Both the position numbers and the translations under genes were made by a program. Shown here piece by piece: positions 4,542-35,317 of a stretch of 46,147 bases of DNA; positions within the stretch are counted from its first letter, which is position 1; every line of letters begins with the position of its first letter. The stretch spans positions 1-46,147 of the forward strand of contig CAMCQE010000016.1 of the NCBI GenBank assembly GCA_945876945.1, read 5' to 3'. The notes under the pieces were generated by a model. It made no database searches. It had not been told where the DNA came from and was given only the letters and a program-made list of their open reading frames with translations. The DNA comes from Klebsiella pneumoniae (GTDB lineage: Bacteria > Pseudomonadota > Gammaproteobacteria > Ga0077536).

Positions 4542-5348
4542 ATGAAGCCCTCTGCACACTCCGGCCGGCGCAGCGACTCCCTGGTCTGCTGGCTAGCCCT
4601 AGCGCTCTGCGCCTGCAGCCCGGCATTCGCCGACGAATCAGCAGCCGTCACCAACGCCCACATCGCCAAAAAACTCGACCCCTCCGACTTTCGCTCCCGC
4701 TTCGAACTGCGAAACCGATTGCAGGAACCGCAAACGGGCGGTCTGCGCAACACGCTGGTGCCGCGTATGGAGTTTGCGTTCAGCAAGCGCTTGGTGATGC
4801 GCATCGAAACCCCGGTGATGGTCTACGACGCCGATCGCCCGGGCTTTGCCACGCAGGGCGGCATGGGGGATTTGCTCGTCCGCGCCAACGTACGCCTGTT
4901 CCGCACGGCCCACACGGCGCTGGTCGCGGGATACGAATTTACCTTCGATACCGCGAGCGAAAAATTTCTCGGCACCGGGCACCACGCGGGCGGGCCTCTG
5001 GTGTTTGTATCAATCGATGAACCCCGCCTGCACACCACGTTCTTTCCGCTCATCCAGCACATGCAGTCATTTGCCGGCGACCCCTCCCGTGAGGAGGTCA
5101 ACTACACCATGACGCGGATGTTCGCCTTGACCCGCTGGCCCGATCGCTTTTACTCGGCCGCCGAAATTTCGATTTATTTCGACCACGTCCGTAACAAGGA
5201 AGGCGCGACATTGGAACTTGAAGGCGGACGTTTCATCAATTCACATGTCGCGCTGTGGGCGCGCCCGGGGTTCGGCAACTGGGGCGACAACCTGCCCCAA
5301 GTCTATAACTGGAACATCGAATTCGGGATGCGCTATCTGTTTGACTGA
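4542..5348 (+). CDS. Secreted protein, possible outer-membrane beta-barrel
   Basis: A 268-residue protein of no firmly recognised family. Residues 1-31 form a signal peptide: basic start, the hydrophobic stretch LVCWLALALCAC, and a likely cleavage after AFA. The mature part has no hydrophobic helices. It alternates polar and aromatic or hydrophobic residues in strand-like stretches (RLVMRIETPVMVYD, TALVAGYEFTFDT) and ends in RYLFD, near an aromatic residue. This fits a small outer-membrane barrel of the kind sometimes annotated as phenol-degradation MetA-like, but that link is weak. It lies 91 bp before the P450 operon on the same strand and could have a transport role for it; that is speculation. 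Confidence 0.75.
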   Translation: MKPSAHSGRRSDSLVCWLALALCACSPAFADESAAVTNAHIAKKLDPSDFRSRFELRNRLQEPQTGGLRNTLVPRMEFAFSKRLVMRIETPVMVYDADRPGFATQGGMGDLLVRANVRLFRTAHTALVAGYEFTFDTASEKFLGTGHHAGGPLVFVSIDEPRLHTTFFPLIQHMQSFAGDPSREEVNYTMTRMFALTRWPDRFYSAAEISIYFDHVRNKEGATLELEGGRFINSHVALWARPGFGNWGDNLPQVYNWNIEFGMRYLFD

Positions 5349-5439
5349 ATGGCCACCGACCTGCCCTTGCGGCGGCGGCAACAACCCTTGATCACACATT
5401 ACTGGCCGGGCTGAGAGCAGCCCTTTGAGCGAGGTCTTT

Positions 5440-6810
5440 ATGAACGAGCGAGTCAGTCCACCCGCAATCTCTCCGCCGCCGGCCACACCCTGGCTCCATG
5501 GTTTGCGTTCAAATCCGGACGACCGTCCGCAGTTCTTTCAGAGCCTCATTCAGCGTTACGGCGACGTGGTGCGCTGGCGCTTTCTGTTCGACATCTTTCT
5601 GCTGAATCACCCGGACGACATCAAACGCGTGCTCAGCGCGCCGTCCGAGAAATTCTCCAAGGGCACGCTCGACTACCGCATCCTCGCGCTGTCGCTCGGC
5701 AATGGGCTGGTGACGAACGACGGTCCGCACTGGGTGTATCAGCGCAAGCTCATGCAACCGCTGTTTCATAACCGCTCGATCAATCCTTTCGACGAACCCA
5801 TCAACCGGCTCACCAACGCGCTGGCCGAGCGCTGGGCCAGCCTGCCGGCCGGGCAGTCGGTGCTGATGGAGCGCGAAATGGGCAAGCTCACTTTCGAAGC
5901 GGTGGGCACCACCCTCTTTGGGGTCGACATCGAGCAACACGCCGACGAGATCTCGAAAGTGCTGGAAGTGGTGAACGTCTCCACTCAGGAACTGCGCTCC
6001 ATCCTGTTACTGCTCCTGCCCTGGCTGCCGCTCAAACATACCCGCGCCTCACGCGACGCCGTCGCCCGACTGGATCGCATCGTGTTCGGCATGATTAACG
6101 CCCGCCGCGCCAGCAGCGAACGCCGCGACGATATTCTCGACCGGCTACTGGCGGCCCGCGATGAAGACACCGGCGCCGGGATGGACGAACAACAAATCCG
6201 CGATGAAGTGGTCACGCTGCTGCTCGCTGGCCACGAAACCTCATCGAACGGCCTGGCGTGGACCTTCTGGATGCTCACCCAGCATCGGGATGTCGAAGCG
6301 CGCCTGCTGGAAGAACTCTCCAGCGTGCTGAACGATCGCCCGGCGCTGAGCAGCGATTTGGCGCAACTGCCCTATCTCAAACAGGTTGTGCAGGAATCGA
6401 TGCGCCTCCTGCCGCCGGTGTGGGCGATTGCGCGAAGGTCGCATCAGGACGAAGTCTTTCAGGGCCATCTCGTGCCCGCCGGGGCCTACATCACGATCCC
6501 CATCTACGCGCTGCACCGGCATCCGGAATTCTGGCCCGATCCGGAGCGCTTCGATCCCGAACGCTTCAACCCCAATCGCACCGATCCCCGCCATTCCTAC
6601 TGCTACATTCCGTTTGCAGCGGGGCCGCGCACCTGCATCGGCGCCGGCATGGCGATGCTCGAAATCCAGCTAGTGATTGCCAATCTCCTGCCGCGCTTCC
6701 GCATGGACGTCGCGCCCGGCGCCCGCATTGAACCGGCCGCCAAAGTCACCCTCACGCCCAAATTCGGCATGCCGATGACCGTCACGCCGCGCCACGCGGC
6801 ATCTAACTGA
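5440..6810 (+). CDS. Cytochrome P450 (first of a pair)
   Basis: A 456-residue soluble bacterial P450 monooxygenase. The I-helix oxygen-activation motif AGHETSS begins at A263, the K-helix ExxR motif is E319-R322 (ESMR), a PERF-like segment follows (PERFDPERFNP), and the heme loop FAAGPRTCIGAG carries the cysteine ligand C399. There is no N-terminal membrane anchor and no fused reductase. ATG at 5440 is preferred over TTG at 5425 because GAGG lies about six bases before it. The gene is followed after 10 bp by an LLM gene. It is a clear paralogue of the P450 at 8487. No ferredoxin or reductase gene is seen in the window, so its electron donor is unknown, as is its substrate. Confidence 0.95.
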   Translation: MNERVSPPAISPPPATPWLHGLRSNPDDRPQFFQSLIQRYGDVVRWRFLFDIFLLNHPDDIKRVLSAPSEKFSKGTLDYRILALSLGNGLVTNDGPHWVYQRKLMQPLFHNRSINPFDEPINRLTNALAERWASLPAGQSVLMEREMGKLTFEAVGTTLFGVDIEQHADEISKVLEVVNVSTQELRSILLLLLPWLPLKHTRASRDAVARLDRIVFGMINARRASSERRDDILDRLLAARDEDTGAGMDEQQIRDEVVTLLLAGHETSSNGLAWTFWMLTQHRDVEARLLEELSSVLNDRPALSSDLAQLPYLKQVVQESMRLLPPVWAIARRSHQDEVFQGHLVPAGAYITIPIYALHRHPEFWPDPERFDPERFNPNRTDPRHSYCYIPFAAGPRTCIGAGMAMLEIQLVIANLLPRFRMDVAPGARIEPAAKVTLTPKFGMPMTVTPRHAASN

Positions 6811-6820
6811 GGAACCCCGC

Positions 6821-7831
6821 ATGAGCACTTCCCGTCTTGGCTTCGGACTTTGGTATTCGCTGCGCAATCCGGCGCAATGGTCGCGGCCTTATCCCGAGAT
6901 TTACGCCGAAACGATCAAGCAAATCGCCTGGGCCGAGACCATCGGCTACGACGATGTGTGGCTGACCGAGCATCACTTCTGCGAGGACGGCCACGCACCG
7001 TCGATCCTGCCGCTCTGTGCCGCGGTGGCCGCACGCACGACGCGCATCCGCATTGGCACCAGCGTGCTGCTGCTGCCGCTCTACCACCCGGTGCGCGTGG
7101 CGGAAGACGCGGCCACCATCGACATCATCTCCAACGGCCGCTTTGAGCTTGGCGTGGGCGTGGGCTACCGGCCGCAGGAGTTCAAGGGACTCGGCTTGCG
7201 CGCGCAGGATCGCGGCGCGCGCATGGACGAAGGCCTGGAAATCATTCGCGCGCTGTGGCGCGGCGAAACCGTGGACTATCGCGGCAAGCATTTTCAGGTG
7301 GAGGGCGCGAAGCTCGCGCCTATGCCGGTACAAACGCCACCGCCGCTGTGGATTGGCGGCTTCGCACCCGCGTCGGCCAAACGCGCGGCGCGCATCGGTG
7401 ACGGCTATCTCGGCACGGGCGAGATGGGCGAGCTGCTGAAGGTCTATCGCGAGGAGCGCGCACGCCTCGGCCACAGCGGTCCGGGGCGCGCCATCGGCGG
7501 TCACTTCTGGCTGGTCGTGTCGAAAGACCCTAAAGCCACGCTGGCCGAACTCGGGCCGCACGTGCTGTATCAAATCGAGATGTACAACAAATGGCTGGGC
7601 GAAGCCGGTCAGGCGCTGTTCCCACCAATCGATTCGCCGGCGCAGCTGGTCGAGATGGGCATCCTGCAAATCCTCACGCCGCAGGCCGCGGTCGATGCCA
7701 TCGGCGCCTACGTGGAAGCCACCGGCATCGAGCGTTACTACACATGGACCGTGCCGCCGGGGTATCCCGAAGCCAAAATGAACGAGCATCTGCAGCTGTT
7801 TGCCGAAGAAGTCATGCCCGCGTTTCGTTAA
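6821..7831 (+). CDS. LLM-class flavin/F420-dependent oxidoreductase
   Basis: A 336-residue single-domain luciferase-like monooxygenase (bacterial luciferase TIM-barrel superfamily). Typical segments are WLTEHHFCEDG near residue 50, RIRIGTSVLLLPLYHPVRVA, the GRFELGVGVGYRPQEF loop and PPLWIGGFAPASAKRAAR. Members use FMNH2 or F420 to oxidise small organic substrates. Which cofactor is used here cannot be decided from sequence; many proteobacterial members are probably FMN-dependent. GAGGAA stands before the ATG. The gene is 10 bp after a P450 and 18 bp before a GST, so it belongs to the same operon. Confidence 0.9.
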   Translation: MSTSRLGFGLWYSLRNPAQWSRPYPEIYAETIKQIAWAETIGYDDVWLTEHHFCEDGHAPSILPLCAAVAARTTRIRIGTSVLLLPLYHPVRVAEDAATIDIISNGRFELGVGVGYRPQEFKGLGLRAQDRGARMDEGLEIIRALWRGETVDYRGKHFQVEGAKLAPMPVQTPPPLWIGGFAPASAKRAARIGDGYLGTGEMGELLKVYREERARLGHSGPGRAIGGHFWLVVSKDPKATLAELGPHVLYQIEMYNKWLGEAGQALFPPIDSPAQLVEMGILQILTPQAAVDAIGAYVEATGIERYYTWTVPPGYPEAKMNEHLQLFAEEVMPAFR

Positions 7832-7849
7832 TTCAGGAAGGACCGAGCG

Positions 7850-8485
7850 ATGAAACTCTACGACTGTGCGATGGCGCCCAATCCCCGCCGCCTGCGAATT
7901 TTTCTGGCCGAGAAGAACATCGACATCCCGAAAATCGAGGTCAATATCCTCGACGGCGAAAACACCCAGCCGGCGTTTCTGGCGGTCAACCCCCGCGGGC
8001 TCCTGCCCACGCTGAAGCTCGACGACGGCACCTGCTTCGACGAAGTGATGGCGATCTGCCGTTACCTCGAGGCGCTCTATCCCTGGCAGCCCATGCTGGG
8101 CCGCACGCCGCTGGAACAAGGGCTGGTGGAAAGCCTGCAACGCAAGGCGGAGTTCGAGGGCATGATTGCCGGCTCCGAAGTCTTTCGTAACCAGCACCCC
8201 AAGTTTGCCGAGCGGAGCATTCCGGGCGGCGGCGGGCAACTTATTCCGGCGATCCCTGCGCTGGTGGCGCGCGGTCGGCAAACCATTGAACGCTTCTACG
8301 ACTGGCTGGAAGCACAACTCCAGCGTTCGCCCTATCTGGCGGGCGAGCAGATGACGATGGCCGACGTCACCGCGTTTTGCGCCATCGGCTTTCACGCGTG
8401 GATCGACATCAGCATTCCGGCCGGCAACAGCGCCACGTTGGCGTGGTACGCCGCACTCAATGCCCGCCCCAGCGCGGCAGCCTGA
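7850..8485 (+). CDS. Glutathione S-transferase family protein
   Basis: A 211-residue cytosolic GST. The N-terminal thioredoxin fold starts MKLYDCAMAPNPRRLRIFL, with the glutathione-contacting cis-proline at P53 (RGLLPTL) and a DEVMAICRYLE segment in the position of the usual glutathione-binding ES motif. The helical C-terminal domain carries YLAGEQMTMADVTAF, the N-capping and hydrophobic-staple motif of GSTs. An AGGAAGG ribosome site precedes the start. It lies between the two P450 modules. A detoxifying role, or a lyase or isomerase step on an electrophilic P450 product, is plausible but inferred. Confidence 0.92.
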   Translation: MKLYDCAMAPNPRRLRIFLAEKNIDIPKIEVNILDGENTQPAFLAVNPRGLLPTLKLDDGTCFDEVMAICRYLEALYPWQPMLGRTPLEQGLVESLQRKAEFEGMIAGSEVFRNQHPKFAERSIPGGGGQLIPAIPALVARGRQTIERFYDWLEAQLQRSPYLAGEQMTMADVTAFCAIGFHAWIDISIPAGNSATLAWYAALNARPSAAA

Positions 8486-8486
8486 A

Positions 8487-9821
8487 ATGACTCCCCAGAC
8501 GCCGCTGCCGCCGGGCCCTGGACTGGTTGCCAGCTGCGAGGCCTACGGCCGCGATCCGGCGGTGTATTTCCAGAAGCTGTTTGCCGAATACGGTCCCGTC
8601 GTGCGCTGGCGCGGCTACATGAACATGTTCCTGCTGAACAACCCGGACGACGTGCGTACCGTGCTCACGCAGGCCTGGCCGCGCTACACCAAGCGCAACA
8701 TCGACTACCGCGTGCTGCGGCAAACGATGGGCGAAGGCCTGGTCACCAGCGACGGCGAGTTCTGGGCGCGGCAACGGCGCCTGATGCAGCCGATGTTTCA
8801 TGCGCGAGTGGTAAATGGTTTCGACGCGGCGATCAATCAGGCGACTGCCGACCTCGCCGCCCGCTGGCGGGCGCACCCGGCCAATGTGCCGCTCGCGCTT
8901 GACCGCGAGATGAGCCGGCTGACCTTCCGCATTGTGGGCGAGACGCTGTTCGGTGCCGGCATCGAACAACACGCCGAAGCCGTGGCCAAGCTGCTGGATG
9001 AAACCAACGTCAATCCCAAAACGCTCTCCGCGCTGCTCACGCTGTGGCCCTGGCTGCCGGTGCCGAGCAACCTTCGCTTCAAGCGCCATATGCAGCTGCT
9101 GGACGACATCGTCTACGGCATGATTCGCGACCGCCGCGCGAACGCCGAAACGCGACAGGACTTGCTCGGGCTGCTCCTCGCCGCGCGCGACGAACAGGAC
9201 GCACCGCTGCCGGACAAACAAATCAGGGACGAAGCCATCACCCTGCTGCTGGCCGGTCATGAGACCTCGGCTACCGCGCTCGACTGGACCTTCCACCTGC
9301 TCTCACAGCACGCGGAAGTTGAAGCCGAACTGCTCAACGAGCTCCACACGGTGCTGAACGGGCAGCCGGCAACGGCCGCAGATCTCCCCCGCCTGCCCTA
9401 TCTCAAACAGGTCGTGCAGGAATCCATGCGGCTGTATCCGCCGGTGTGGGGGATCTCGCGGCGCGCCGAGCTAGATGCCGAATTTGGCGGCTATCGCATT
9501 CCCAAAGACGCCTACGTGGTGATCCTGCCCTACACCCTGCATCGGCATCCGGACTGGTGGCAGGAACCGGAACGCTTCGACCCCGCGCGTTTCAGCCCGG
9601 CGCGCAGCGAGGGCCGGCATTCGTATGCCTATATTCCGTTCTCGGCCGGATCGCGCGCCTGCATCGGCATCGGGATGTCGATGCTCGAAGTCCAGCTGGT
9701 GCTGGCCCAGTTACTCCCGCAGTTCAAGGTACGCACCGTGCCCGGCCATCCTGTAATTCCCCAACCCTCGGTGACCTATCGGCCCCGGTTTGGCGTGCAG
9801 GTCACGATCGCGCCGCGTTAA
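8487..9821 (+). CDS. Cytochrome P450 (second of a pair)
   Basis: A 444-residue soluble P450. The I-helix AGHETSA begins at A256, the ExxR motif is E312-R315, and the heme loop FSAGSRACIGIG carries the cysteine ligand C392. It shares long similar stretches with the P450 at 5440, such as LPYLKQVVQESMRL-PPVW, ending the K helix, and GLVTxDG near the N-terminus. The two look like diverged duplicates. ATG at 8487 is chosen although the frame is open to 8460; it starts one base after the GST stop, so translation is probably coupled. No ribosome site is obvious. Confidence 0.95.
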   Translation: MTPQTPLPPGPGLVASCEAYGRDPAVYFQKLFAEYGPVVRWRGYMNMFLLNNPDDVRTVLTQAWPRYTKRNIDYRVLRQTMGEGLVTSDGEFWARQRRLMQPMFHARVVNGFDAAINQATADLAARWRAHPANVPLALDREMSRLTFRIVGETLFGAGIEQHAEAVAKLLDETNVNPKTLSALLTLWPWLPVPSNLRFKRHMQLLDDIVYGMIRDRRANAETRQDLLGLLLAARDEQDAPLPDKQIRDEAITLLLAGHETSATALDWTFHLLSQHAEVEAELLNELHTVLNGQPATAADLPRLPYLKQVVQESMRLYPPVWGISRRAELDAEFGGYRIPKDAYVVILPYTLHRHPDWWQEPERFDPARFSPARSEGRHSYAYIPFSAGSRACIGIGMSMLEVQLVLAQLLPQFKVRTVPGHPVIPQPSVTYRPRFGVQVTIAPR

Positions 9822-9863
9822 CCCGGCGCCCACTCTCACCAGCGTGTGTTTAAAGGCGAGCCC

Positions 9864-10709
9864 ATGAAATTCGGATTTTTCGGCATCAACATGAACGCCT
9901 GCAGCGAGCCCGACACGGCGCGGCGCGTGGCGCAGGCGGCCGAAGCCGCCGGCTTTGAATCTTTGTGGACCGGTGAGCACGTGGTGCTGCCCGACCCGCA
10001 GGTGGCGCCCTCGCCGCTGCCGCCGCACTACCCCATTCTCGACCCGGCGATCGCGCTCAGCTTCCTGGCCGCGCACACTCACACCATCAAGCTCGGCACC
10101 GGCATCATCATCCTGCCGCAGCGGAATCCGCTGGTGCTGGCGAAAGAACTCGCCAGTCTGGATGTGGTGTCCAAAGGCCGACTGATTTTTGGGCTGGGCG
10201 TGGGCTATCTCAAACCGGAGTTCGACGCCCTTGGCGTGTCGTTCGATCACAAGGGCGCGCGCGCCATCGATTACCTGCAAGCCATGCAGGCGGTGTGGAC
10301 GCAAGCCGCGCCGGCGTACCCGGGACGCTTCGTGAACTTCGGCGGCATTCAGGCCAAACCACAGCCCATCCAGCAGCCGCTGCCGATTGTGATTGGCGGC
10401 CACACCAAAGCGGCCTACGAGCGCGCCGTGCGCCACGCCCACGGCTGGTATGGCTTCGCGCTGGATGTAGCGGCCACCGAGCGCTGCCTCGCCGGCTTGC
10501 ACGAAGCGGCGCAAACCGTAGAGCGCCCCCCCGCGCTGGGCCCGCTGGAAATCAGCATCACGCCGGCCGCCAGGCTCACGCCCGAACTCGTGGATAGCTA
10601 CGCCGCCATCGGCGTGCAGCGGCTGATCCCGTTTCCACGGATGAAAACTGCTGAGGAGTTACTAGACTTCGTGGAGGAGACGGGGCGCTTGCTGGCGACT
10701 GTCGGCTGA
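9864..10709 (+). CDS. LLM-class oxidoreductase, Rv2161c-like
   Basis: A 281-residue luciferase-like protein. It begins MKFGFFGINMN and has the family segments SLWTGEHVVLPDP, IKLGTGIIILPQRNPLVLAK, GRLIFGLGVGYLKPEF and IVIGGHTKAAYERA. The short length and pattern resemble the actinobacterial Rv2161c-type subfamily, whose members are assigned F420 by homology. It is not a simple copy of the LLM at 6821. ATG at 9864 is preferred over GTG at 9846 because AAAGGCGAG precedes it. It closes the P450 operon and is followed by the repeat-rich region. Confidence 0.9.
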   Translation: MKFGFFGINMNACSEPDTARRVAQAAEAAGFESLWTGEHVVLPDPQVAPSPLPPHYPILDPAIALSFLAAHTHTIKLGTGIIILPQRNPLVLAKELASLDVVSKGRLIFGLGVGYLKPEFDALGVSFDHKGARAIDYLQAMQAVWTQAAPAYPGRFVNFGGIQAKPQPIQQPLPIVIGGHTKAAYERAVRHAHGWYGFALDVAATERCLAGLHEAAQTVERPPALGPLEISITPAARLTPELVDSYAAIGVQRLIPFPRMKTAEELLDFVEETGRLLATVG

Positions 10710-10746: not shown

Positions 10747-10781
10747 CCCGTTCATGCTTCGACAAGCTCAGCACGAACGGG
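10747..10781. repeat. REP-like hairpin element
   Basis: An imperfect inverted repeat with arms CCCGTTC and GAACGGG around a core containing TTCGACAAGCTCAGC. The same core, in reverse complement, is the building block of the tandem array starting at 10861 and of the hairpins at 45742 and 45938. Elements with this GCTGAGC-TGTCGAAGC core are common intergenic repeats in proteobacteria. It sits just downstream of the P450-LLM operon and may protect or terminate its mRNA. Confidence 0.75.
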
Positions 10782-10860
10782 GTTTCGCGCTGGGTGGGCA
10801 CCTTCGGAACCTTAGGCTTCGCGACACCCTTTCCGCTGGTTGAGGTGGAACATTCGATCC

Positions 10861-11270
10861 TGTCGAAGCGCAGCCCCCGCGCCACCGTTCGCGCTGAGCC
10901 TGTCGAAGCGCAGCCCCCGCGCCACCGTTCGCGCTGAGCCTGTCGAAGCGCAGCCCCCGCGTCATCGTTCGCGCTGAGCCTGTCGAAGCGCAGCCCCCGC
11001 GTTACCGTTCGCGCTGAGCCTGTCGAAGCGCAGCCCCCGCGCCACCGTTCGCGCTGAGCCTGTCGAAGCGCAGCCCCCGCGCCACCGTTCGCGCTGAGCC
11101 CGTCGAAGCGCGGCCCCCGCGCCACCGTTCGCGCTGAGCCCGTCGAAGCGCAGCCTTCGCGTTACCGTTCGCGCTGAGCCTGTCGAAGCGCAGCCCCCGC
11201 GCCACCGTTCGCGCTGAGCCTGTCGCAGCGCAGCCCCCGCGTTACCGTTCGCGCTGAGCCTGTCGAAGCG
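10861..11270. repeat. 40-bp tandem repeat built from a REP-like core
   Basis: The decamer TGTCGAAGCG, or a one-base variant, recurs at exact 40-base steps eleven times, at 10861 and every 40 bases to 11261. Between these lie CAGCCCCCGC, then G(CCA/TTA/TCA)(C/T)CGTTC, then GCGCTGAGCC. The unit is half of the REP-like hairpin at 10747, so a dispersed element has been amplified head to tail. Because 40 is not a multiple of three, all frames of the minus strand stay open and give false proteins of 40-residue periodicity. It occupies the space between the convergent LLM genes ending at 10709 and 11301; no gene is seen in 10710-11300. Confidence 0.93.
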
Positions 11271-11300
11271 CGAGGCGTGGCGTCTGCGTGAAATCCCCTA

Positions 11301-12224
11301 TCAGGAAAAATCGCCCCGCACCTCGGCCAGAAAATCAAACGTCCGGTCGAACGCGCCCGGATCGATCTCGGCAATGGACGCATTGAAATCGGTCACGCCG
11401 GCATCGCGCAGCCGCGCCAATGCGTCGCGCAACGTGGCCTCGTCACCCACCAGCGCCGCATCGCCCGGGCCGGCAAAACCTTCGCGGTCGAGCATCGCGC
11501 GGTAGCTCGGCAACTGGCCGTAAATGGCGAGCGAACGCGCGATTTTCTCGCGCGCCGCGGCGACATCGGTGGTCAGCACGATCGGCAGCCCAGCGATGAC
11601 GCGCGGTGCCGGACGGCCGGCGGCCGCGGCGGCTTTGCTGAGCAGCGGCTGGATGTGGGTGGCGATGGTTTGCGGACCGGTCATCCAGGTGCTGGTGCCG
11701 TCCGCCACACGCCCGGCCAGGCGCAGCATGTGCTCGCCCAGCGCGGCCACGATCACCGACACATCGGAGACGCCCGGCACGTCGATCTGCAGATTGGCGA
11801 AGCGGTAGATCTCCCCTTCAAAATTTACCATCTCGCCGCGTAACAGGGGCCGCAGGACCGACAGGTATTCCCGCATGTGGCGCACCGGCCGGGCATAAGA
11901 CAGGCCGAGCATGCCCTCCACCACCCGCTGGTGCGAAAGCCCAATGCCCAGCACAAAACGGTTGCCGCTGAGCTGCGCGGTGGTCAGCGCCTGCTGGGCC
12001 ATGGCCATGGGATGACGCGGATAGGTGGGCGTCACCGCCGTGCCGAGTTCAATGCGGGTCGTCTCGCGCCCCGCCACGCCCAGCGCCGCAATCGCATCGA
12101 TGCTCCGGATATGCGCCATCCAGAGCGAGGCGAAGCCCGCGGCCTCGGCGCGCTTGGCGAGCGCCACAATGCTGTCAACGGTAACGCCGCTCATGCTGGC
12201 GCCGCTCATGAGACCAAATCGCAT
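11301..12224 (-). CDS. LLM-class oxidoreductase (third copy type)
   Basis: A 307-residue luciferase-like protein. Landmarks are the N-terminal MRFGLMSGASMSG, AEAAGFASLWMAHI, TRIELGTAVTPTYPRHPMAMA and GNRFVLGIGLSHQ. The pattern recalls mycobacterial F420-dependent MSMEG_4879-like members, but an FMN enzyme is not excluded. The frame is open to 12443; ATG at 12224 is chosen because homologous similarity begins there and the upstream residues look non-coding. It stands alone on the minus strand, convergent with the P450 operon and divergent from yheS, with 151 bp shared upstream. Confidence 0.88.
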   Translation of the reverse strand: MRFGLMSGASMSGVTVDSIVALAKRAEAAGFASLWMAHIRSIDAIAALGVAGRETTRIELGTAVTPTYPRHPMAMAQQALTTAQLSGNRFVLGIGLSHQRVVEGMLGLSYARPVRHMREYLSVLRPLLRGEMVNFEGEIYRFANLQIDVPGVSDVSVIVAALGEHMLRLAGRVADGTSTWMTGPQTIATHIQPLLSKAAAAAGRPAPRVIAGLPIVLTTDVAAAREKIARSLAIYGQLPSYRAMLDREGFAGPGDAALVGDEATLRDALARLRDAGVTDFNASIAEIDPGAFDRTFDFLAEVRGDFS

Positions 12225-17236: not shown

Positions 17237-18130
17237 TTAGAGATGTTTCACAAACCAGTCGCGCGCGGCGGCGCTGGTTTCATCAAACTTCTCGATGTAG
17301 GCCGCGTAGTGATCGGACTTGATCACATGCAGCTCCTTCGGACCCTGCACCTTGGCGTAGCAAGACAGCGCGATGTCGGTCGGGGTGGTGGTGTCGACCT
17401 CGGCCACGATCATCAGCAAGGGCGTGGGGCTGATGTATTCCATGTAGCCCATCACGTCGTACTCGCCCATGTACTCGATGGAACGCAGGGTGACGCGGTT
17501 TTCCCAAGTGGATTTGGGGTCTTTGTCGGTGTAGTGGTGGATGAAGTTGTAGGTCGCGCTGCCCGGGAACACATGGGGTTCGTTCGGGTCGAGCGAGCAC
17601 ATCTTCATGTACATCGAAGGCTCGCCCCGCACGCGGCGGGCGCGGTCTTCGTCCAGCATCTTCTGGAAGCCTTCCACGGCGCCGATGGGCAGGAACTGCT
17701 GCAGGTTGTGGTGACCGCGCATGAACGGCACCTGGCTGACCACGCACTTCACGCGGCGATCGAGCGCGGCGACCGCGCAAACCGTGCCGCCGGTATAGCT
17801 CGTGCCCCAGATCCCGATGCGGTTCGGATCTACTTCTTTCTGCATCTGGGCGAAGGTAATGGCCGAGCGATAGTCGCGGCGCTGCCAGGTAGGATCGATT
17901 TCCGCACGCGGCTCGCCGTCGGAAGCGCCGAGGCAGCGGTTGTCGTACACCAGCACGCACATGCCGGCGGCGGAGAAGACTTCGGCGAATTTATCCAGCG
18001 ACATTTCCTTCACGCCGGAAAATCCGTGGGCCATCACGACGCAGGGAAACGGGCCTTTGCCTTTTTTGGGCTTGTAGAACCAGCCGCGCAGCGTGACGCC
18101 GTCGGCGTTGAACTCGATATCTTTACGCAT
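17237..18130 (-). CDS. Alpha/beta hydrolase, S15 / dienelactone-hydrolase-like
   Basis: A 297-residue alpha/beta hydrolase without a signal peptide. The nucleophile elbow is GTSYTGG with S111; the acid is probably the Asp of AEVDTTTPTD and the base the His of IKSDHYAAY. The oxyanion region is VVMAHGFSGVKE. The pattern VYDNRCLGASDGEPR resembles X-Pro dipeptidyl-peptidase (S15)-like and DUF1100-type esterases. GAGGGGAG precedes the ATG. It lies 85 bp downstream of the AMP-ligase gene on the same strand and is followed by a strong terminator, so the two probably share a transcript. The substrate is unknown. Confidence 0.88.
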   Translation of the reverse strand: MRKDIEFNADGVTLRGWFYKPKKGKGPFPCVVMAHGFSGVKEMSLDKFAEVFSAAGMCVLVYDNRCLGASDGEPRAEIDPTWQRRDYRSAITFAQMQKEVDPNRIGIWGTSYTGGTVCAVAALDRRVKCVVSQVPFMRGHHNLQQFLPIGAVEGFQKMLDEDRARRVRGEPSMYMKMCSLDPNEPHVFPGSATYNFIHHYTDKDPKSTWENRVTLRSIEYMGEYDVMGYMEYISPTPLLMIVAEVDTTTPTDIALSCYAKVQGPKELHVIKSDHYAAYIEKFDETSAAARDWFVKHL

Positions 18131-18215: not shown

Positions 18216-19790
18216 CTACGCGGTATTGTTGATTGCGAGTTCGCGCAGTTTGGCGCGCTGGATTTTGGTGCCGTTAGCGCTTTGTGTCGTGGGAAATGCC
18301 TCGACGCAAAAAATTCGTTTGGGCTGCTTGTAGCCGGCGAGACGCGCCTTGCACCAGGCGCGCAAGGCTTCTTCATCGAATGCACTACCCGCCTGCAGAG
18401 TCACAAAGCCAATCGCCACCGGCTCGCGATGAAGCGTAATCCCCACCACCTGCGCGCCGCTCACCGTGGGATGAGTTTCGAGCACGGCTTCGATTTCCTG
18501 CGGGCTGGTGAGAAAACCACCGAGCCGCAGCACATCACCCATCCGCGTGACGTAACAGAAACGCCCGTCGGCTTCGAGGTAGCCCAGATCGCCGGTGCGG
18601 AACCAGCCGTCGGCGGTAAACGCCTCGCGGGTAGCTTCCGGATTGCCAAAGTATTCGCAGAGCAGACTCGGACCGCGCAGTTCGATTTCCCCGTGTTCGC
18701 CCACCGGCAACACGCGACCGGTTTCCGGATCGCGAATGCGCACCGCGGCCTGCGGCGAAATCAGCGCGCCGCCGCCCTTGGCGCGTTCAGCGGCCGGCAG
18801 ATCGCGCGGTTGCAGCGCGTAGAGCGCGTGGCATTCGCTCATGCCATACAGGCCCACGGCGGTGACGCCGCGCGCGTCGGCGATGCTTACCAAATCATCC
18901 AGCGCGGGATTGAATTTAGCGTAGCCAAAGAACTTGAGCGCCGGAAACGGCTGCGGCTCGGGGCGGATTGCGAGCAGGCGCTCGAGCATGTCGTCGCCGC
19001 CGTTCATGTGGGTGATGTGTTCGTCGTGCAGTAAGGCCGCCACACGCTCCGCTTCGAACACCGGCAGCATGCGCATCGGCGCGCCGGCGGCGAGTGCGGC
19101 CAAGGCTTGGGTAAAGCCAAACACGCCACACAGCGGCAAGGCCTGCATCACCCGCGAACCCGGCGCCTCGAAACCAAAACCCACCGCCACATCGCGCGCG
19201 TGTTGCACCACCCCGCCCTGCTGGTGGCAGACAAATTTCGGCGCTTTGGTGGTGCCTGAAGTCGTGAAGATCACGCAGCGCGCATCGGCGCTCGCGCCAG
19301 GCGTCGCGTCGGGCTCGCTAGCCACCAGCGTCGCGTAAGGCGTGACGCGGCAGTTCGCATAGGCAAACGGCGCGGGCGACGGCGCTTCGCTGTAGGTGAC
19401 GATGTCGGTGAGGGCGCTCAGCGCGGTTGGCGCCACGCCCTGCAGAATCCCGAGAAAATCGATGGCTTTGAAGTCCGGCCACAGCACCAGCAGCTTGCAG
19501 CCGCTGCGGCCCACGATGTCTTCGACTTCCTGCGACCGAAACCGCGTGTTCACCGACACCGCAATCGCGCCAATCCGCGCACAGGCAAAAAAGCCGCACA
19601 GCCAGGCCGGGATATTGGGCAACCAGAGCGCCACGCGGTCGCCGGCTTGCACCCCGAGTTCGCGCAAGCCCTGCGCGAGCCGCAGGCTTTCCTGCTGCAG
19701 TTCGCCGGTAGTCCAGGTGCGCCCTTCGTAATCGATCGCGGTGCGCGCGCCGGGCAGGCCCTGCAGGAAGTCAGTCAAGCTATCGGTCAA
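18216..19790 (-). CDS. AMP-dependent acyl-CoA synthetase/ligase
   Basis: A 524-residue ANL-superfamily adenylating enzyme. Core motifs are the P-loop-like VIFTTSGTTKAPK, the A5 motif YGMSECHALY, GWFRTGDLGYLEADGRF, the hinge RMGDVLRLGGF and the C-terminal catalytic lysine in SANGTKIQR. It should activate a carboxylic acid as an acyl-adenylate and pass it to CoA. The start is uncertain: TTG at 19790 gives LTDSLTDFLQGLP and fits the family, while the frame stays open to 19877. It precedes the S15-like hydrolase on the minus strand and is divergent from the MgtC/DUF4010 gene. Confidence 0.88.
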   Translation of the reverse strand: MTDSLTDFLQGLPGARTAIDYEGRTWTTGELQQESLRLAQGLRELGVQAGDRVALWLPNIPAWLCGFFACARIGAIAVSVNTRFRSQEVEDIVGRSGCKLLVLWPDFKAIDFLGILQGVAPTALSALTDIVTYSEAPSPAPFAYANCRVTPYATLVASEPDATPGASADARCVIFTTSGTTKAPKFVCHQQGGVVQHARDVAVGFGFEAPGSRVMQALPLCGVFGFTQALAALAAGAPMRMLPVFEAERVAALLHDEHITHMNGGDDMLERLLAIRPEPQPFPALKFFGYAKFNPALDDLVSIADARGVTAVGLYGMSECHALYALQPRDLPAAERAKGGGALISPQAAVRIRDPETGRVLPVGEHGEIELRGPSLLCEYFGNPEATREAFTADGWFRTGDLGYLEADGRFCYVTRMGDVLRLGGFLTSPQEIEAVLETHPTVSGAQVVGITLHREPVAIGFVTLQAGSAFDEEALRAWCKARLAGYKQPKRIFCVEAFPTTQSANGTKIQRAKLRELAINNTA

Positions 19791-26812: not shown

Positions 26813-27808
26813 TTGAAACTGCTCCGCGCTGTGCTTGCCTTCACCCTGATCGCGGGATCTGTCGCCGGGTTCTACGTGTACTGGCAGCATCGCGGCCTGC
26901 ATCCCTCAACCGAAGACGCTTACCTCGAAGCCCATATCGTGCGGGTGTCTTCGCGGGTCACGGCGCCGGCCAAGTTCATCCATGTTGTGGACAACCAATA
27001 CGTACGAGCCGGTGAGCCCTTGTTTGATTTGGGCCCCGCCACGTTTGAACAGAAACTCGCCCGCGCCCAGGCCCGGCTCGCGCTCGCCGCCCAGGACACC
27101 GGTGCCAGCGGCGCGGAAATCAAAGCCGCCAGCGCCACCTTGCGCGAGCGCGAAGTCACCGCCGACAACGCGCGGCGCACGGTCAATCGCGTGCAGGCGC
27201 TGGCACAGAAAAAGCTCGTGCCGGCGCAGCAACTCGACGATGCGCTGGCGACCTATGCCGAAGCCGAGGCCGCCGTAGGTGCGGCCCGCGCCGGCCTTGA
27301 ACGCGCGCGCAACGCCTTGGGCGACAGCGGTCCGCAGAACGCACGCCTGCGCGCAGCCGCCGCCGATCTCGCGCTGGCGGAACTCGAACTCTCGTTCACC
27401 CACATCAAGGCCAGCGCCGCCGGCTGGGTGACCAATCTCACGCTGCGGCCCGGCACCATGGTGCACATGGGGCAAACCCAGTTCGGCCTGGTGGAGGAAA
27501 AAGAATGGTGGGTGGAAGCCAATTTCCGCGAAACCGATCTCACGCGCATCAAGCCCGGACAGCCGGCCAGCATCACCCTCGATATGTATCCGGACCTGCG
27601 TTTGAACGGCCGGGTCGAAAGCCTGAGCGCGGGCTCCGGCGCCACGTTCTCGCTGCTGCCGCCGGAGAACGCCACGGGTAACTGGGTGAAAGTCACACAG
27701 CGTTTTCCAGTGCGGATCGCGCTGGATGCCCTACCTGCCGACAGCGCCACACCGCTGCGCGTCGGTGCCAGCGCGTCGGTTGAGGTCGACACCACCGGCG
27801 CGCCATGA
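26813..27808 (+). CDS. HlyD/EmrA-family membrane fusion protein
   Basis: A 331-residue periplasmic adaptor with one N-terminal membrane helix (LRAVLAFTLIAGSVAGFYVYW), then the biotinyl-lipoyl half segment STEDAYLEAHIVRVSSRV, a long alpha-helical hairpin rich in Ala, Glu and Arg, the second lipoyl half and a beta-barrel domain (WWVEANFRETDLTRIKPGQ). It joins an inner-membrane exporter to an outer-membrane channel. TTG at 26813 is chosen because it sits right before the helix and follows GAGG; the frame is open to 26684. The stop overlaps the start of the DHA2 pump (ATGA). No TolC-type gene is nearby. Confidence 0.9.
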   Translation: MKLLRAVLAFTLIAGSVAGFYVYWQHRGLHPSTEDAYLEAHIVRVSSRVTAPAKFIHVVDNQYVRAGEPLFDLGPATFEQKLARAQARLALAAQDTGASGAEIKAASATLREREVTADNARRTVNRVQALAQKKLVPAQQLDDALATYAEAEAAVGAARAGLERARNALGDSGPQNARLRAAAADLALAELELSFTHIKASAAGWVTNLTLRPGTMVHMGQTQFGLVEEKEWWVEANFRETDLTRIKPGQPASITLDMYPDLRLNGRVESLSAGSGATFSLLPPENATGNWVKVTQRFPVRIALDALPADSATPLRVGASASVEVDTTGAP

Positions 27809-29307
27809 GCGAGCGGGCGCCAGACTCGCCAAGCTGGGCGGTGATCACCGCCGTCATGCTGACCACGCTGCTCGAAGTGCTGGACCTCACGGTGGTGAAT
27901 GTCTCGCTGCCGCACATGATGGGCAGCTTCGGCGCCACGCCGGACCAGATCACCTGGATCGTCACCTCCTACATGATTTCCACCATCGTGGTGATGCCGC
28001 TCACCGGCTTTCTGTCGGCGCGCTTCGGCCGGCGCGAAGTCTTGCTGTGGTCGATTTTTGGTTTCGTGGTCGCGTCCGCCCTGTGCGGCGCGGCCTGGAG
28101 TCTGGAATCGATGGTGCTGTTCCGGCTGCTGCAGGGCGGCTTCGGGGCGACGCTGATTCCGCTTTCGCAAACCGTGCTGTTCGACGCCTTTCCCCGTGCG
28201 CAACGCGCCAAGGCGATGGCCATCTGGAGCATCGCGATCATGGTGGCGCCCATCGTGGGTCCGACCATCGGCGGCATCATCACGGAACATTTTGAGTGGC
28301 GCTGGGTGTTTTACGTGAACGTGCCGATTGGCCTGTTCGCGCTCTTGCTCGCGCTGAGTGAAATTCCCACCACGCCGCGCCGCCCCACCGCGGACATCGA
28401 CTGGCTGGGGCTGCTGCTGATGTCGCTGATGCTCGGCAGCCTGCAGGCGGTGCTCGATCTTGGCCACCACCACGAATGGTTTGCCTCCAAACTCATCATG
28501 GGGCTGGCGATTACGGCTGCCGTGACCGCGATGCTGTTTGTCGTACGCGGCCTGCGGGTCGCCAATCACATCGTGGATCTACGACTGTTCGGCAATCGCA
28601 ATTTCACGCTGGGCTGCCTGCTGGTGGCGGGCTACTGCCTCACGATGTACGCCACCATTACGCTCCTGCCGCTGCTCACCCAGCGTCTGCTGGGCTATCC
28701 ACCGGACACGGCCGGACTGCTGTTTCTCCCGCGCGGCACCACCAGCGCGCTGCTGCTCATTATCGTGGGCAGTTACCTCGCGCATCGGGTGGATGCCCGC
28801 TGGCTGATAGCCATTGGGCTATGTTTCATGACGGTGGCCTGCGCCTTCATGGCGGGCTACACCTTGCAGATCGATCCCTGGGGCCTGATTTGGCCGGGCA
28901 TGATTCAGGGCATTGGCATGGCACTCATTTTTGGCCAGTTGCCGCTGGTGACCTTTGAGACGATTCCGCGCGATCGCGCCGATGAGGCGGCCGGCTTGTA
29001 CAGCGTGATGCGCACGCTGGGCTCGGCGTTTGGGGTCGCGCTATCGGGCACGCTGTATGTGCGGCAGGAGCAGGTGCACTGGCACACCTTGGGCGGACAT
29101 CTGGCCGATACCAATCCGGATTTTCAGGACTGGCTGCTGCGCGGCGGGGTCAGCTTGCAGGACGCCGCAGCGCCGGCGAAGCTCGCAGGTCTCATCAGCA
29201 AGCAGGCGTCCATGCAGGCGTTCTCGGATATCTACGCCGCGATCGCGGTGAGTTTCCTGTTTTTGCTGCCCTTGGTGGCGATGTTAAGAAAACCCCCTCG
29301 CCCGTGA
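27805..29307 (+). CDS. DHA2-family MFS drug efflux pump, EmrB-like
   Basis: A 500-residue major facilitator with about 14 membrane helices. The DHA2 signature is clear: LEVLDLTVVNVSLPHMMGSF in helix 1, the GRREVLLWS loop, RLLQGGFGATLIPLSQT and the motif C segment IMVAPIVGPTIGGIIT. Such pumps use the proton gradient to export hydrophobic compounds. It starts inside the stop of the EmrA-like gene, forming the usual tripartite pair. Its position near catabolic genes suggests solvent or xenobiotic tolerance, but no specific substrate can be named. Confidence 0.95.
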   Translation: MSERAPDSPSWAVITAVMLTTLLEVLDLTVVNVSLPHMMGSFGATPDQITWIVTSYMISTIVVMPLTGFLSARFGRREVLLWSIFGFVVASALCGAAWSLESMVLFRLLQGGFGATLIPLSQTVLFDAFPRAQRAKAMAIWSIAIMVAPIVGPTIGGIITEHFEWRWVFYVNVPIGLFALLLALSEIPTTPRRPTADIDWLGLLLMSLMLGSLQAVLDLGHHHEWFASKLIMGLAITAAVTAMLFVVRGLRVANHIVDLRLFGNRNFTLGCLLVAGYCLTMYATITLLPLLTQRLLGYPPDTAGLLFLPRGTTSALLLIIVGSYLAHRVDARWLIAIGLCFMTVACAFMAGYTLQIDPWGLIWPGMIQGIGMALIFGQLPLVTFETIPRDRADEAAGLYSVMRTLGSAFGVALSGTLYVRQEQVHWHTLGGHLADTNPDFQDWLLRGGVSLQDAAAPAKLAGLISKQASMQAFSDIYAAIAVSFLFLLPLVAMLRKPPRP

Positions 29308-32592: not shown

Positions 32593-32940
32593 ATGAACGC
32601 GACTGCGAGCCCTGATCGTCAGCATCAGACCTACGCCATTTTCAACGCGCGGCTGCGCGCTGAAATTCGGGGCCTCATCACCCCCGCCCTGATCGAAGAA
32701 CATCGCAGCAACCCGCTGGGCCGTCACAGCGATGCGCTGGCGCGGGTGGTGAACTTCCTGCGGCGGCCGCCGCACTACGCGCTGTATTCCGCCAAGCCCA
32801 TGCGCGAATGGCAGCTGATTGCGCTCCCCATCGCCGCCGGCCAGCCGCCACAGCCGCTGGACGACGTGGTCTATACCAGCGAAGAAGCCGCCATTCACGC
32901 CGTGTTCCTGCGGCATATCGCCGACCTGCAGGCGGAGTAA
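32593..32940 (+). CDS. dmfA1: N,N-dimethylformamidase small (alpha) subunit-like protein
   Basis: A 115-residue protein that matches the recalled small subunit of DMFase (about 132 residues) over most of its length. Shared features are EEHxxNPxG near the middle, an RVxNFxRxxP segment, REWxxxxI and the C-terminal EEAxHAVFLRxIxDxxAE. The small subunit has no catalytic site of its own; it packs against the large subunit in an alpha2beta2 unit. ATG at 32593 is chosen over an open frame to 32521. It is followed after 7 bp by the large-subunit gene, as in known dmfA1A2 pairs. True substrate is unproven. Confidence 0.85.
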   Translation: MNATASPDRQHQTYAIFNARLRAEIRGLITPALIEEHRSNPLGRHSDALARVVNFLRRPPHYALYSAKPMREWQLIALPIAAGQPPQPLDDVVYTSEEAAIHAVFLRHIADLQAE

Positions 32941-32947
32941 GACCCTG

Positions 32948-35218
32948 ATGAACAAACCGCTGATTACCGGCTACTGCGATCGCCTGAGCGTGAAACCCGG
33001 CGACACCCTGCGCTTCATGCTGAGCGCGGAAGGCACCACCACCGCTGAGGCGCAACTGGTGCGCCTGATTCATGGCGATGAAAACCCCATCGGCCCGGGT
33101 TTTCTGGAAGAAGAAATTGCCGCCAGCTGCAACGGCCCTGTCACGCTCGCGCAGCAGTACAGCCAGATGGGCAGCTTCATCGAAATCCCCGACCCGGAAG
33201 GCCGCGCGCTGCCCGAGGGTAGCTTCACGCTGCACGCGCTGATTTGTCCGACGCTGCCGGGCAAAGGCCGACAGGCCATCCTCACGCAGTCCTCATCGCT
33301 CGAGGCGACAGGCTTTGCGCTGCTCATTAACGAACAGGGCTACCTCACGCTGTGGCTGGGCGACGGCGAGCGCACGGCGGAAGTGACCGCCGACAAGCGC
33401 TTGATGGCGCGCAACTGGTATCTGGTGGCGGCCAGCGTTAACCCGCAAAGCGGTAAGGTCGCGCTCTATCAGCAACCGGTGCTGGGGGCCTACAACAACC
33501 TGCACTCGGTGGTGGTGCCGCGCGACGATGGCGTGTTCCTCACCCGCGAGTTGAGTCTCACCCCGAAAGCCTGTGCGCGGCCGATCCTGCTGGCCGGCGA
33601 ACATGCCCGCCATCACGCGCTGGGCGATGTCGTCGGCGCGCTTTACAACGGCAAGATCGATCGCTGCGGGATTGCGCGCGGCGAATTGAGCCGCACCGAT
33701 CTCAACATCATCCGCGACGGCGGCGTCCCCCCCGCCGAGGCCGTGCAAACCTACTGGGACACCACCGCCGGCTATACCGACCACGGCATCGACGACCGCC
33801 TCATCGACACCGGGCCGCTCGCCCTGCACGGCTTGGGCCGCAATCGTCCGGTGCGCGCCATGACCGGCTATAACTGGAGCGGGCGCGACGACTGCTTCCG
33901 GCTGAATCCCGCGCAGTACGGCGGCATCGAGTTTCACGAAGACGCCATCATCGACAGCGGCTGGTGTCCGTCTCTGGAGTGGCAGGTGCCGGAGGGTTTG
34001 AAGAGCGGGGTTTATGCGCTGCGTCTGCGCTCGGGCGAAACAGAGGATCACGTGGTGTTCTTCCTGCGCCCCACCACGCCGCAGGCGGCGGTCGCCATGT
34101 TGATGCCCACCGCGAGCTATCTCGCCTACGCCAACGAGCGCTTTGTGATTGAAGCCCCGGCGGTGGAAGTCGTGACGGGTCATCCGCTGGTGCTCTACGA
34201 CTGGGACTACGCGCTGGCGGCCCATCCCGAGTGGGGTCGTTCGAGCTACGACCATTATCGCGACGGCGCGGGCGTGAGCTATTCGTCCTACCTGCGGCCG
34301 ATCATGGGGCTGCGGCCCAAACACCGCATGGCGGCCACCAATGTGCCCTGGCAGTTCGCCGCCGACCTTTCGATCGTTTGCTGGCTGGAACAGCAGGGTT
34401 TTGCCTACGACGTCATCACCGACGAAGACCTGCACCGCGAAGGTGTGAGCTGTCTGGCGCCGTACGCGGCGGTGCTGAACGGCACCCACTCCGAGTACTA
34501 CTCGGAACGCATGCTGGACGCCACCGAGCAATACGTTGCGGCCGGTGGGCGGGTGATGTATCTCGGCGCCAACGGCTATTACTGGGTGGTGGCCTTCCGT
34601 GAAGAAGAGCCCTGGTGCATGGAAATTCGCAAGCTCGATGCCGGCTCCCGCGCCTGGCAGGCGGCGCCCGGCGAGTACTACATGGCGACAACTGGCGAGA
34701 AAGGCGGCATCTGGCGGAATCGCGGCCGCGCGCCGCAAAAACTCACCGGCGTTGGCTTTGCCAGCGAGGGCATGGATCAGTCCCGCCCCTATCAGCGCCT
34801 GCCCGACAGCCATGACCCGGCTGTGAGCTGGGTGTTTGAGGGCGTCAATCAAACCCGCTTCGGCGATTTTGGCCTCGGCCAGAACGGCGCGGCGGGGCTG
34901 GAAATCGACCGTTATGATTTAAGCCTTGGCACCCCGCCCGGCACCTATCTGCTGGCCACCTCTGAACCGTTCTCCGACGCCTATCCGCACGTGGTGGAAG
35001 AGATCATGTTCAACTACCCGGGTCTCGGCGGGACGCAGGATTTTCAGGTGCGAGCGGACGTCACGCTGTTTGCGGCGATTAACGGCGGCGCCATGTTCTC
35101 CACCGGCAGCATTGCCTGGGGGCAGGCGCTGCCCTGTAATGGCGGCGATAACGAGGTCTCGAAAATCACCGCCAATGTCCTGCGGCGGTTTGTGAATCAG
35201 GGTCCGATAACGGACTAA
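32948..35218 (+). CDS. dmfA2: N,N-dimethylformamidase large (beta) subunit-like protein
   Basis: A 756-residue protein, close to the 762 residues of known DMFase large subunits. It has an N-terminal beta-rich and lectin-like region (LLINEQGYLTLWLGDGERT) and a C-terminal DMFA2_C catalytic domain. DMFase hydrolyses dimethylformamide to dimethylamine and formate at a mononuclear iron held by two Tyr and one Glu. Candidate ligands here are Y394 (ASYLAYAN), Y434 (SYDHY) and E516 (THSEYY); their spacing agrees within one residue with the ligands I recall for the Paracoccus enzyme. Many family members have untested substrates, so DMF is a hypothesis. The downstream neighbour is an LLM gene. Confidence 0.88.
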   Translation: MNKPLITGYCDRLSVKPGDTLRFMLSAEGTTTAEAQLVRLIHGDENPIGPGFLEEEIAASCNGPVTLAQQYSQMGSFIEIPDPEGRALPEGSFTLHALICPTLPGKGRQAILTQSSSLEATGFALLINEQGYLTLWLGDGERTAEVTADKRLMARNWYLVAASVNPQSGKVALYQQPVLGAYNNLHSVVVPRDDGVFLTRELSLTPKACARPILLAGEHARHHALGDVVGALYNGKIDRCGIARGELSRTDLNIIRDGGVPPAEAVQTYWDTTAGYTDHGIDDRLIDTGPLALHGLGRNRPVRAMTGYNWSGRDDCFRLNPAQYGGIEFHEDAIIDSGWCPSLEWQVPEGLKSGVYALRLRSGETEDHVVFFLRPTTPQAAVAMLMPTASYLAYANERFVIEAPAVEVVTGHPLVLYDWDYALAAHPEWGRSSYDHYRDGAGVSYSSYLRPIMGLRPKHRMAATNVPWQFAADLSIVCWLEQQGFAYDVITDEDLHREGVSCLAPYAAVLNGTHSEYYSERMLDATEQYVAAGGRVMYLGANGYYWVVAFREEEPWCMEIRKLDAGSRAWQAAPGEYYMATTGEKGGIWRNRGRAPQKLTGVGFASEGMDQSRPYQRLPDSHDPAVSWVFEGVNQTRFGDFGLGQNGAAGLEIDRYDLSLGTPPGTYLLATSEPFSDAYPHVVEEIMFNYPGLGGTQDFQVRADVTLFAAINGGAMFSTGSIAWGQALPCNGGDNEVSKITANVLRRFVNQGPITD

Positions 35219-35268
35219 CGCGGTCGTGCCGGGCTGCGCACGAACTCAACGGCAATATCGGAAAAAAC

Positions 35269-35282
35269 GACCGGGCCCGGTC
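35269..35282. promoter_or_regulatory. Perfect palindrome between dmfA2 and the LLM gene
   Basis: GACCGGGCCCGGTC is a perfect 14-bp palindrome, 35 bp before the LLM start at 35318, next to AAAAAAC on its left. It could be a protein-binding operator. On the minus strand it is followed by CG and six T residues and would look like a short terminator, but no minus-strand gene ends there. Confidence 0.35.
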
Positions 35283-35317
35283 TTGGGCTCTAGCACTACA
35301 GAGCGAGGAGAACAGCA

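Follow-up and report, generated by a model that had tools for sequence, protein, structure and literature searches.

Results

Five genes for oxidative enzymes are packed on one strand

The stretch of DNA analyzed here (the window) is the whole of contig C16 (CAMCQE010000016.1; 46,147 nucleotides), one of 219 contigs of a 3.8-Mb gammaproteobacterial genome. Between positions 5440 and 10709 it carries five intact open reading frames, all on the + strand, which encode two cytochrome P450s (P450a and P450b), two oxidoreductases of the luciferase-like class (LLMa and LLMb), and a glutathione S-transferase (GST) in the order P450a-LLMa-GST-P450b-LLMb (Table 1). The intergenic gaps are, in order, 10, 18, 1, and 42 bp, exactly those given in a preliminary description of the locus made from the letters alone, and Pfam and NCBIfam confirmed the enzyme classes that this description had assigned. 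Three genes have possible alternative starts, namely an in-frame TTG at 5425 for P450a, an ATG at 8460 for P450b, which would overlap the GST gene, and a GTG at 9846 for LLMb. The I-helix AGHET, the ExxR, and the heme FxxGxRxCxG motifs are intact in both P450s. The preliminary description also called the module mirrored. This stands for the P450s, which are paralogs (52% identity), but not for the LLMs, which share ~35% identity and belong to different subfamilies.

Among NCBIfam models, both P450s match albaflavenone monooxygenase and pentalenene oxygenase best; with scores of 212 to 264 bits, they do not reach the equivalog cut-offs of these models (700 or 800 bits). Lutein-pathway and carotene P450s, CYP4B1, cholesterol 24-hydroxylase, and P450 120 are among the solved relatives of P450a, and the second solved relative of P450b is 3dbg, titled only "Putative cytochrome P450," which we take to be a Streptomyces CYP170 enzyme. 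We found no literature naming 7wzl, the best solved P450 relative, and the closest P450 match in plasmid records is ~40% identical. The nearest solved relative of the GST is yeast Gtt2 (3erf, E 4e-30, full length). No known RNA family was found in the window. As the preliminary description had stated, no transcription regulator is included: there is none inside the operon, and the Pfam scan, which covered each of the window's 45 called genes, recognized none.

Table 1. Features of the operon and its surroundings in the window.
Feature	Position	Strand	Remarks
268-aa protein	4542..5348	+	91 bp before P450a; signal-peptide-like start (by eye)
P450a, cytochrome P450, 456 aa	5440..6810	+	PF00067 E 1e-89; ATG start
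LLMa, luciferase-like F420-class oxidoreductase, 336 aa	6821..7831	+	PF00296 (Bac_luciferase) E 9e-65
GST, glutathione S-transferase, 211 aa	7850..8485	+	Pfam GST N and C domains over cut-off
P450b, cytochrome P450, 444 aa	8487..9821	+	PF00067 E 5e-90; P450a paralog
LLMb, luciferase-like F420-class oxidoreductase, 281 aa	9864..10709	+	Bac_luciferase E 2e-50; TIGR03619
Tandem array, 40-bp unit	10859..11271		10.3 copies, 94% match; Tandem Repeats Finder
Third LLM	11301..12224	-	TIGR03564 (333 bits)
Alpha/beta hydrolase	17237..18130	-	6.5 kb from the operon
AMP-binding acyl-CoA synthetase	18216..19790	-	PF00501; adjoins the hydrolase
HlyD-type and MFS transporter pair	26831..29307		16 kb off
Small protein, dimethylformamidase beta-like protein (PF20254), LLM	32593..36445		in series

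The operon is conserved in its own genus

We searched a family set of 36 genomes from 10 genera, nine of them from the genus of the window (g1) and six from a sister genus (g2). Few candidates were scored per genome in the wide searches, and the gene calls of seven AT-rich loci came from supplementary calling. The full five-gene order is kept in five of the nine g1 genomes, our own included (G000, G008, G010, G011, and G013). The contigs of G014 and G012 end inside the operon, and G007 has the first four genes followed by an ABC-F gene. P450-LLMa-GST is found in eight of the nine, the GST being cut by a contig end in one. The operon lies beside lgt, thyA, and apaH in G000, G008, G010, G012, G013, and G014; the upstream genes differ in G007, and the contig of G011 ends too early to show its place. 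In all six g2 genomes, a single P450, nearer to P450b, is followed by LLMa with lgt nearby, and in four of them (G001, G002, G005, and G006) the GST comes next, this three-gene core having lgt, thyA, and apaH at its side as the g1 operon does. The P450 and LLMa frames overlap by four bases in G008, G012, and G013 and by one base in G003 to G006.

Across the genomes compared, the operon genes have synonymous divergence (dS) values of 0.54 to 1.53 and far lower nonsynonymous divergence (dN). The P450b genes of two loci (L048 and L051), which are cut off by contig ends, were left out of this comparison. Against G010, dN and dS are 0.019 and 0.58 for LLMa, 0.090 and 0.70 for P450b, 0.082 and 0.54 for LLMb, 0.143 and 0.86 for GST, and 0.157 and 1.02 for P450a, with 0.099 and 1.11 for thyA and 0.043 and 0.70 for ABC-F. 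LLMa (dN 0.019-0.084) has the lowest dN among the compared genes in five of five comparisons. Because gene order is kept in the genus despite heavily changed synonymous sites, the association of the genes is above chance, and these comparisons show that P450a-LLMa-GST-P450b-LLMb is conserved as a unit in this genus of uncultured bacteria. The view of the preliminary description that the genes work as one unit, with an oxidative and probably catabolic function, is borne out by the order kept in g1, the three-gene core in g2, and the overlapping frames in seven genomes.

F420 is the likely cofactor of the LLMs

Whether the LLMs use flavin or F420 had been left open in the preliminary description. 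Both proteins pass the cut-off (166.9 bits) of the NCBIfam model TIGR03619 for F420-dependent LLMs, with 179.3 bits for LLMa and 231.9 bits for LLMb. The structure model of LLMa is a TIM-barrel (pLDDT 75), and its Foldseek matches to F420 enzymes (Mer, Fgd) are about as good as those to FMN enzymes. In the family set, cofD is over its curated cut-off in 30 of 36 genomes and cofG in 33 of 36, versus 3 of 14 control genomes for each. A weak threshold tells against this contrast, as cofD and cofG then appear in 35 and 36 of the 36 family genomes and also in 6 and 11 of the 14 controls; because of these control matches, only matches over the cut-off were counted. Our own genome has cofD and cofG over the cut-off and cofC by Pfam. 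Since F420 biosynthesis genes are present in the genome and the family, F420 is favored over flavin, and the operon LLMs likely use it.

Contig C66 of the same genome (L209) carries cofD, cofC, a fused cofGH, a class III CoA-transferase, and three LLMs together, and one of these LLMs is a paralog of LLMa (48% identity). The genome holds 52 LLM genes in its 3.8 Mb, or one per 73 kb, and four of them lie in the window. Contig C91 (L210, 2333-6916) adds one more P450-LLM pairing: another P450, a 252-aa protein, an LLM, and an amidase (PF01425) stand in that order on one strand.

Related P450s in sister genera lie near acyl-CoA enzymes

The P450 clade of the operon (membership at E ≤ 1e-70) is present in 30 of the 36 family genomes, and in 24 of these a same-strand LLM lies beside it: the LLMa type in 14 (g1 and g2) and another type in 10. 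The P450 has no same-strand LLM in G009, G017, G018, G019, G020, and G027, the contig of G020 starting within the P450. The other LLM type is found upstream of the P450 in g3, g7, g9, and g10 (with 1.4 kb between them in g10) and is 68 to 70% identical between genera. We rejected its identification as LLMa, to which it is only 35% identical; since nearer LLMa counterparts (61-71%, among the matches listed) lie elsewhere in g3, g9, and g10, it is a different LLM.

At eight of the ten loci with the other LLM type, a homolog of alpha-methylacyl-CoA racemase is found in the vicinity of the P450; the remaining two loci are cut by contig ends. Its distance from the P450 is 0.5 to 1.4 kb in g7 and g9, 3.3 kb in g10, and 7.4 kb in g3, and a further homolog is found 8.3 kb from the P450 in G019 (g5). 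The racemase is, in all, near the same P450 clade in five other genera, four of which also have the other LLM type. The names of several neighboring genes were read by eye, and those used in the argument were checked on one example each. The g7 protein matched solved racemases with E values of 2e-113 to 5e-104 and other kinds of protein only from 7e-35, and the remaining racemase homologs are 69 to 98% identical to it. A methylmalonyl-CoA mutase lies near the P450 in G019 and G020 (g5). Alpha-methylacyl-CoA racemase and methylmalonyl-CoA mutase act in the metabolism of methyl-branched acyl chains and of the propionyl units released from them. An acyl-CoA ligase different from that of the window is near the P450 in G010, G011, G001, G003, and G004 (71-100% identity to the G004 protein). 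We found no literature joining racemase, P450, and Gammaproteobacteria.

The cluster of LLM, P450, and alpha-methylacyl-CoA racemase recurs in g3, g7, g9, and g10 (L063, L067, and L069-L076). With it come a 266-aa family without a Pfam match, a MauG-like diheme cytochrome, and a class III aminotransferase, and in some cases a redoxin or a flavin monooxygenase-like protein (PF00743); g7 also has a GST of another type (32-35% identity).

Counterparts of the operon genes are scattered in other genera

Counterparts were recognized by gaps in identity and, for LLMa and the P450s only, by trees as well. In the P450 tree, the family sequences fall into a single clade (36 rows, support 100/100), within which P450a separates as its own clade (100/100) and P450b groups as sister of the g2 P450 (94/98). 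Counterparts of LLMa (61-75%) occur, among the matches listed, in at least 13 genomes of g3, g4, g5, g8, g9, and g10, with fragments in G018. These LLMa counterparts lie away from the P450 locus; their surroundings include feoB and DAHP synthase genes in g3, g5, g9, and g10 and are different in g4 and g8. GST counterparts (61-73%) are at separate loci in G017, G026, G015, G016, G019, G020, and G035, and LLMb counterparts (56-77%) at separate loci in seven genomes (G005, G001, G006, G018, G019, G020, and G035). In four of these seven, an acyl-CoA ligase adjoins LLMb or is one gene away; the LLMb counterpart of G005, located ~25 kb away from the g2 core, neighbors a class III CoA-transferase.

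Because LLMa and LLMb are so dissimilar, and each has its own separate counterparts, the second LLM appears to be a recruitment rather than a copy. By parsimony, the dispersal of LLMa, GST, and LLMb counterparts in other genera points to a stepwise gathering, and the operon was probably assembled from genes scattered in sister genera.

The gene set is not known outside the family

Recurrence of the gene order in distant taxa had been set beforehand as a test in the preliminary description, and this expectation was not supported. We read 47 P450 loci from 44 genomes outside the family, with flanks of ~1.5 kb per side (shorter at contig ends), and none had a recognizable LLM or GST beside the P450; neighbors were sought by tblastn with the family's own proteins (E 1e-3), which distant LLMs or GSTs could escape. 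These loci came from two samples: one of 369 genomes of the class, in which 28 genomes outside the family had a P450 match and 26 loci were read, and one of 398 genomes of the phylum, in which 18 such genomes gave 21 loci (two pairs from one genome each overlap or are doubled). We rejected on this basis the idea that the P450 clade with LLM neighbors is spread among Proteobacteria. The outside P450s of the class sample are 28 to 39% identical to those of the family, and LLMa at E ≤ 1e-75 was found in 1 of the 369 class-sample genomes outside the family, at 41% identity. The operon set is not known in distant taxa. An AMP-binding enzyme lies 3′ of the distant P450 in 12 of the 26 class-sample loci (L165-L170, L172, L174-L177, and L180); a P450 followed by an AMP-binding enzyme is a different recurring pair of other gammaproteobacterial families.

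Neighboring genes in the window

The gene that precedes P450a is a candidate first gene of the unit. Its product matches no Pfam or NCBIfam family, even at a wider Pfam threshold, and is possibly an outer-membrane beta-barrel, although the AlphaFold model (pLDDT 32) makes this a guess. In G014, G010, G011, G008, G002, and G001, a counterpart precedes the P450 in the same orientation, and a 38% fragment is present in G012, whereas none was found in G013, G007, and G003 to G006. The alpha/beta hydrolase has a counterpart directly 3′ of the GST, in convergent orientation, in G001, G002, G005, and G006; the hydrolase and the adjoining acyl-CoA synthetase are possible pathway neighbors of the operon. 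The surroundings are otherwise a housekeeping stretch with lgt, thyA, dihydrofolate reductase, apaH, and ABC-F genes.

The third LLM is antisense to the operon and just beyond it; it is retained at that place in G010 and G011 and is missing there in G008 and G013. Between it and LLMb sits the tandem array, which we regard as a boundary mark and do not think to be part of the function of the operon. Related single copies of the 40-bp unit are found at 10755, 45545, 45750, and 45946 (two to three mismatches to a 19-base core). Farther along the window, a small protein, a dimethylformamidase beta-like protein, and an LLM stand in series, and in G017 (g4) a P450-clade gene is followed directly by counterparts of these genes (L056, L132).

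Discussion

We tentatively propose, giving the whole a little less than an even chance, that the five genes form an oxidative operon with a catabolic role, put together step by step within one gammaproteobacterial lineage, and that it has F420-dependent steps and perhaps a methyl-branched, isoprenoid-like substrate. The tight spacing on one strand suggests co-transcription. The P450 would add oxygen to a hydrophobic substrate, and the neighboring LLM, with F420, would move a hydride on the P450 product, taking an alcohol to a carbonyl or reducing an enone. The GST could take up or isomerize a reactive intermediate by glutathione chemistry. The P450b/LLMb pair may then oxidize the compound a second time, at a different position or oxidation level, and the resulting acid would pass through a CoA ligase into beta-oxidation. 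The racemase and mutase neighbors in sister genera and the solved relatives of P450a favor a methyl-branched, isoprenoid-like substrate, a class to which we give rather less than an even chance.

Several observations weigh against this proposal. The argument for an isoprenoid-like substrate runs through sister genera with one P450 and a different LLM, since Pfam recognized no class III CoA-transferase/racemase domain among the window's 45 genes, and in two of the five genera concerned the racemase is 7 to 8 kb from the P450. LLMa is present without the P450 clade in G026 and G033, and because of this and its other contexts it must also serve another role. Co-occurrence is loose in places: the GST counterpart of G003 and G004 is on another contig, G009 has P450b without P450a, LLMa, and GST, and G007 lacks LLMb. 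A search for promoter-like sites yielded none on the + strand. In a rough Poisson estimate, the P450-LLM pairing at two of six loci of our own genome has a probability of ~0.05, which is only modestly unlikely. The scattered counterparts are also missing from some genera, with no GST homolog over 49% identity in g7 and g9 and no LLMb homolog over 46% in g3, g4, g7, g8, and g9. The opposite of stepwise gathering, the scattering of an older cluster, is less likely; it keeps some probability because the base of the P450 and LLMa trees and the family root give no resolution.

Other functions have to be set beside the proposed catabolic one. The P450s and LLMs might decorate a terpenoid or another secondary product made by the cell, with the GST handling a reactive form. 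Both top NCBIfam matches of the P450s, albeit far under the cut-offs, would fit such tailoring, as would the presumed CYP170 relative of P450b, yet the genes sit in a housekeeping stretch, genes of acyl-CoA catabolism accompany the counterparts in sister genera, and no terpene synthase, polyketide synthase, or peptide synthetase domain occurs among the window's 45 genes, to which this search was confined; we consider tailoring unlikely. A broad detoxification module, in which the P450 (phase I), the GST (phase II), and the LLMs clear assorted toxic organics outside any defined pathway, seems to us rather improbable as well. P450 and GST are the textbook pair for foreign compounds, the GST is of the general Gtt2-like type, the genome has a large LLM set, and the HlyD-type/MFS pair of the window could be an efflux system. 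That pair is distant, however, and the operon has neither a regulator nor an efflux gene next to it, while LLMa is the most constrained of the genes (dN 0.019 versus 0.090-0.157 for the GST and P450s, against G010), unlike a loose scavenger. That the genes are mere chance neighbors might be suspected in a genome so rich in LLMs, four of which fall in one window, but it is very improbable given the order kept at dS 0.5 to 1.5 in five genomes, the overlapping frames, and the two separate P450-LLM pairings in the family.

The catabolic operon proposed here can be compared with several known systems. Actinobacteria degrade the cholesterol side chain through activation by the P450s CYP125 and CYP142, CoA ligation, and alpha-methylacyl-CoA racemase, and the likeness, in outline, lies in P450 activation, CoA ligation, and the racemase of the sister genera. 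A CYP125/142-type P450 together with a racemase at the locus would mark that system; neither CYP125 nor CYP142 appears by name in the solved matches, 10 listed sequences for P450a and the best 60 for P450b, and the window's genes have no racemase domain by Pfam. To our knowledge, the LLM and GST have no counterpart in the actinobacterial system. Gtt2-type GSTs resemble ours over their full length, and here the enzyme is found in an operon setting. As the preliminary description had supposed, we found no described pathway with this gene order: no paper joining the terms turned up in a full-text search of open-licence PubMed Central, and the words luciferase, LLM, F420, and glutathione are absent from the main text of a gammaproteobacterial P450 survey (word search).

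The nearest published idea, in the available text of the source, is the SAR202 work, in which expanded FMN/F420 monooxygenases are proposed to oxidize recalcitrant organic matter, alicyclic and sterol-like compounds included (PMC5395668). The likeness is that of one genome with many LLM paralogs, P450s, and CoA enzymes. SAR202 differs in its genome-wide expansion, Baeyer-Villiger LLMs, and CYP125, and the main text of that paper never has the word glutathione (PMC5395668), whereas here a fixed operon with a GST is found in a gammaproteobacterium with a different P450 clade. The operon LLMs also resemble the F420-dependent LLM hydride transferases Fgd, Mer, and Adf in fold, TIGR03619 membership, and the F420 genes of the genome (PMC8498797, available text), but stand beside P450s in one operon.

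The available text of a review of F420 leaves the role of the cofactor in Proteobacteria open (PMC8498797). It is conceivable, though doubtful, that the couple of a P450 and an F420 hydride transferase is the core of a methyl-branched-lipid route that was built twice, with different LLMs, in one gammaproteobacterial order and would be one reason for keeping F420, and that in g1 it was doubled and joined by a GST through the gathering of scattered genes. If the probable direction of assembly holds, the making of the operon may be traced through living genera, from P450 and LLMa, then the GST, to the second P450 and LLMb, and the operon and its kin supply named, testable enzyme pairs.

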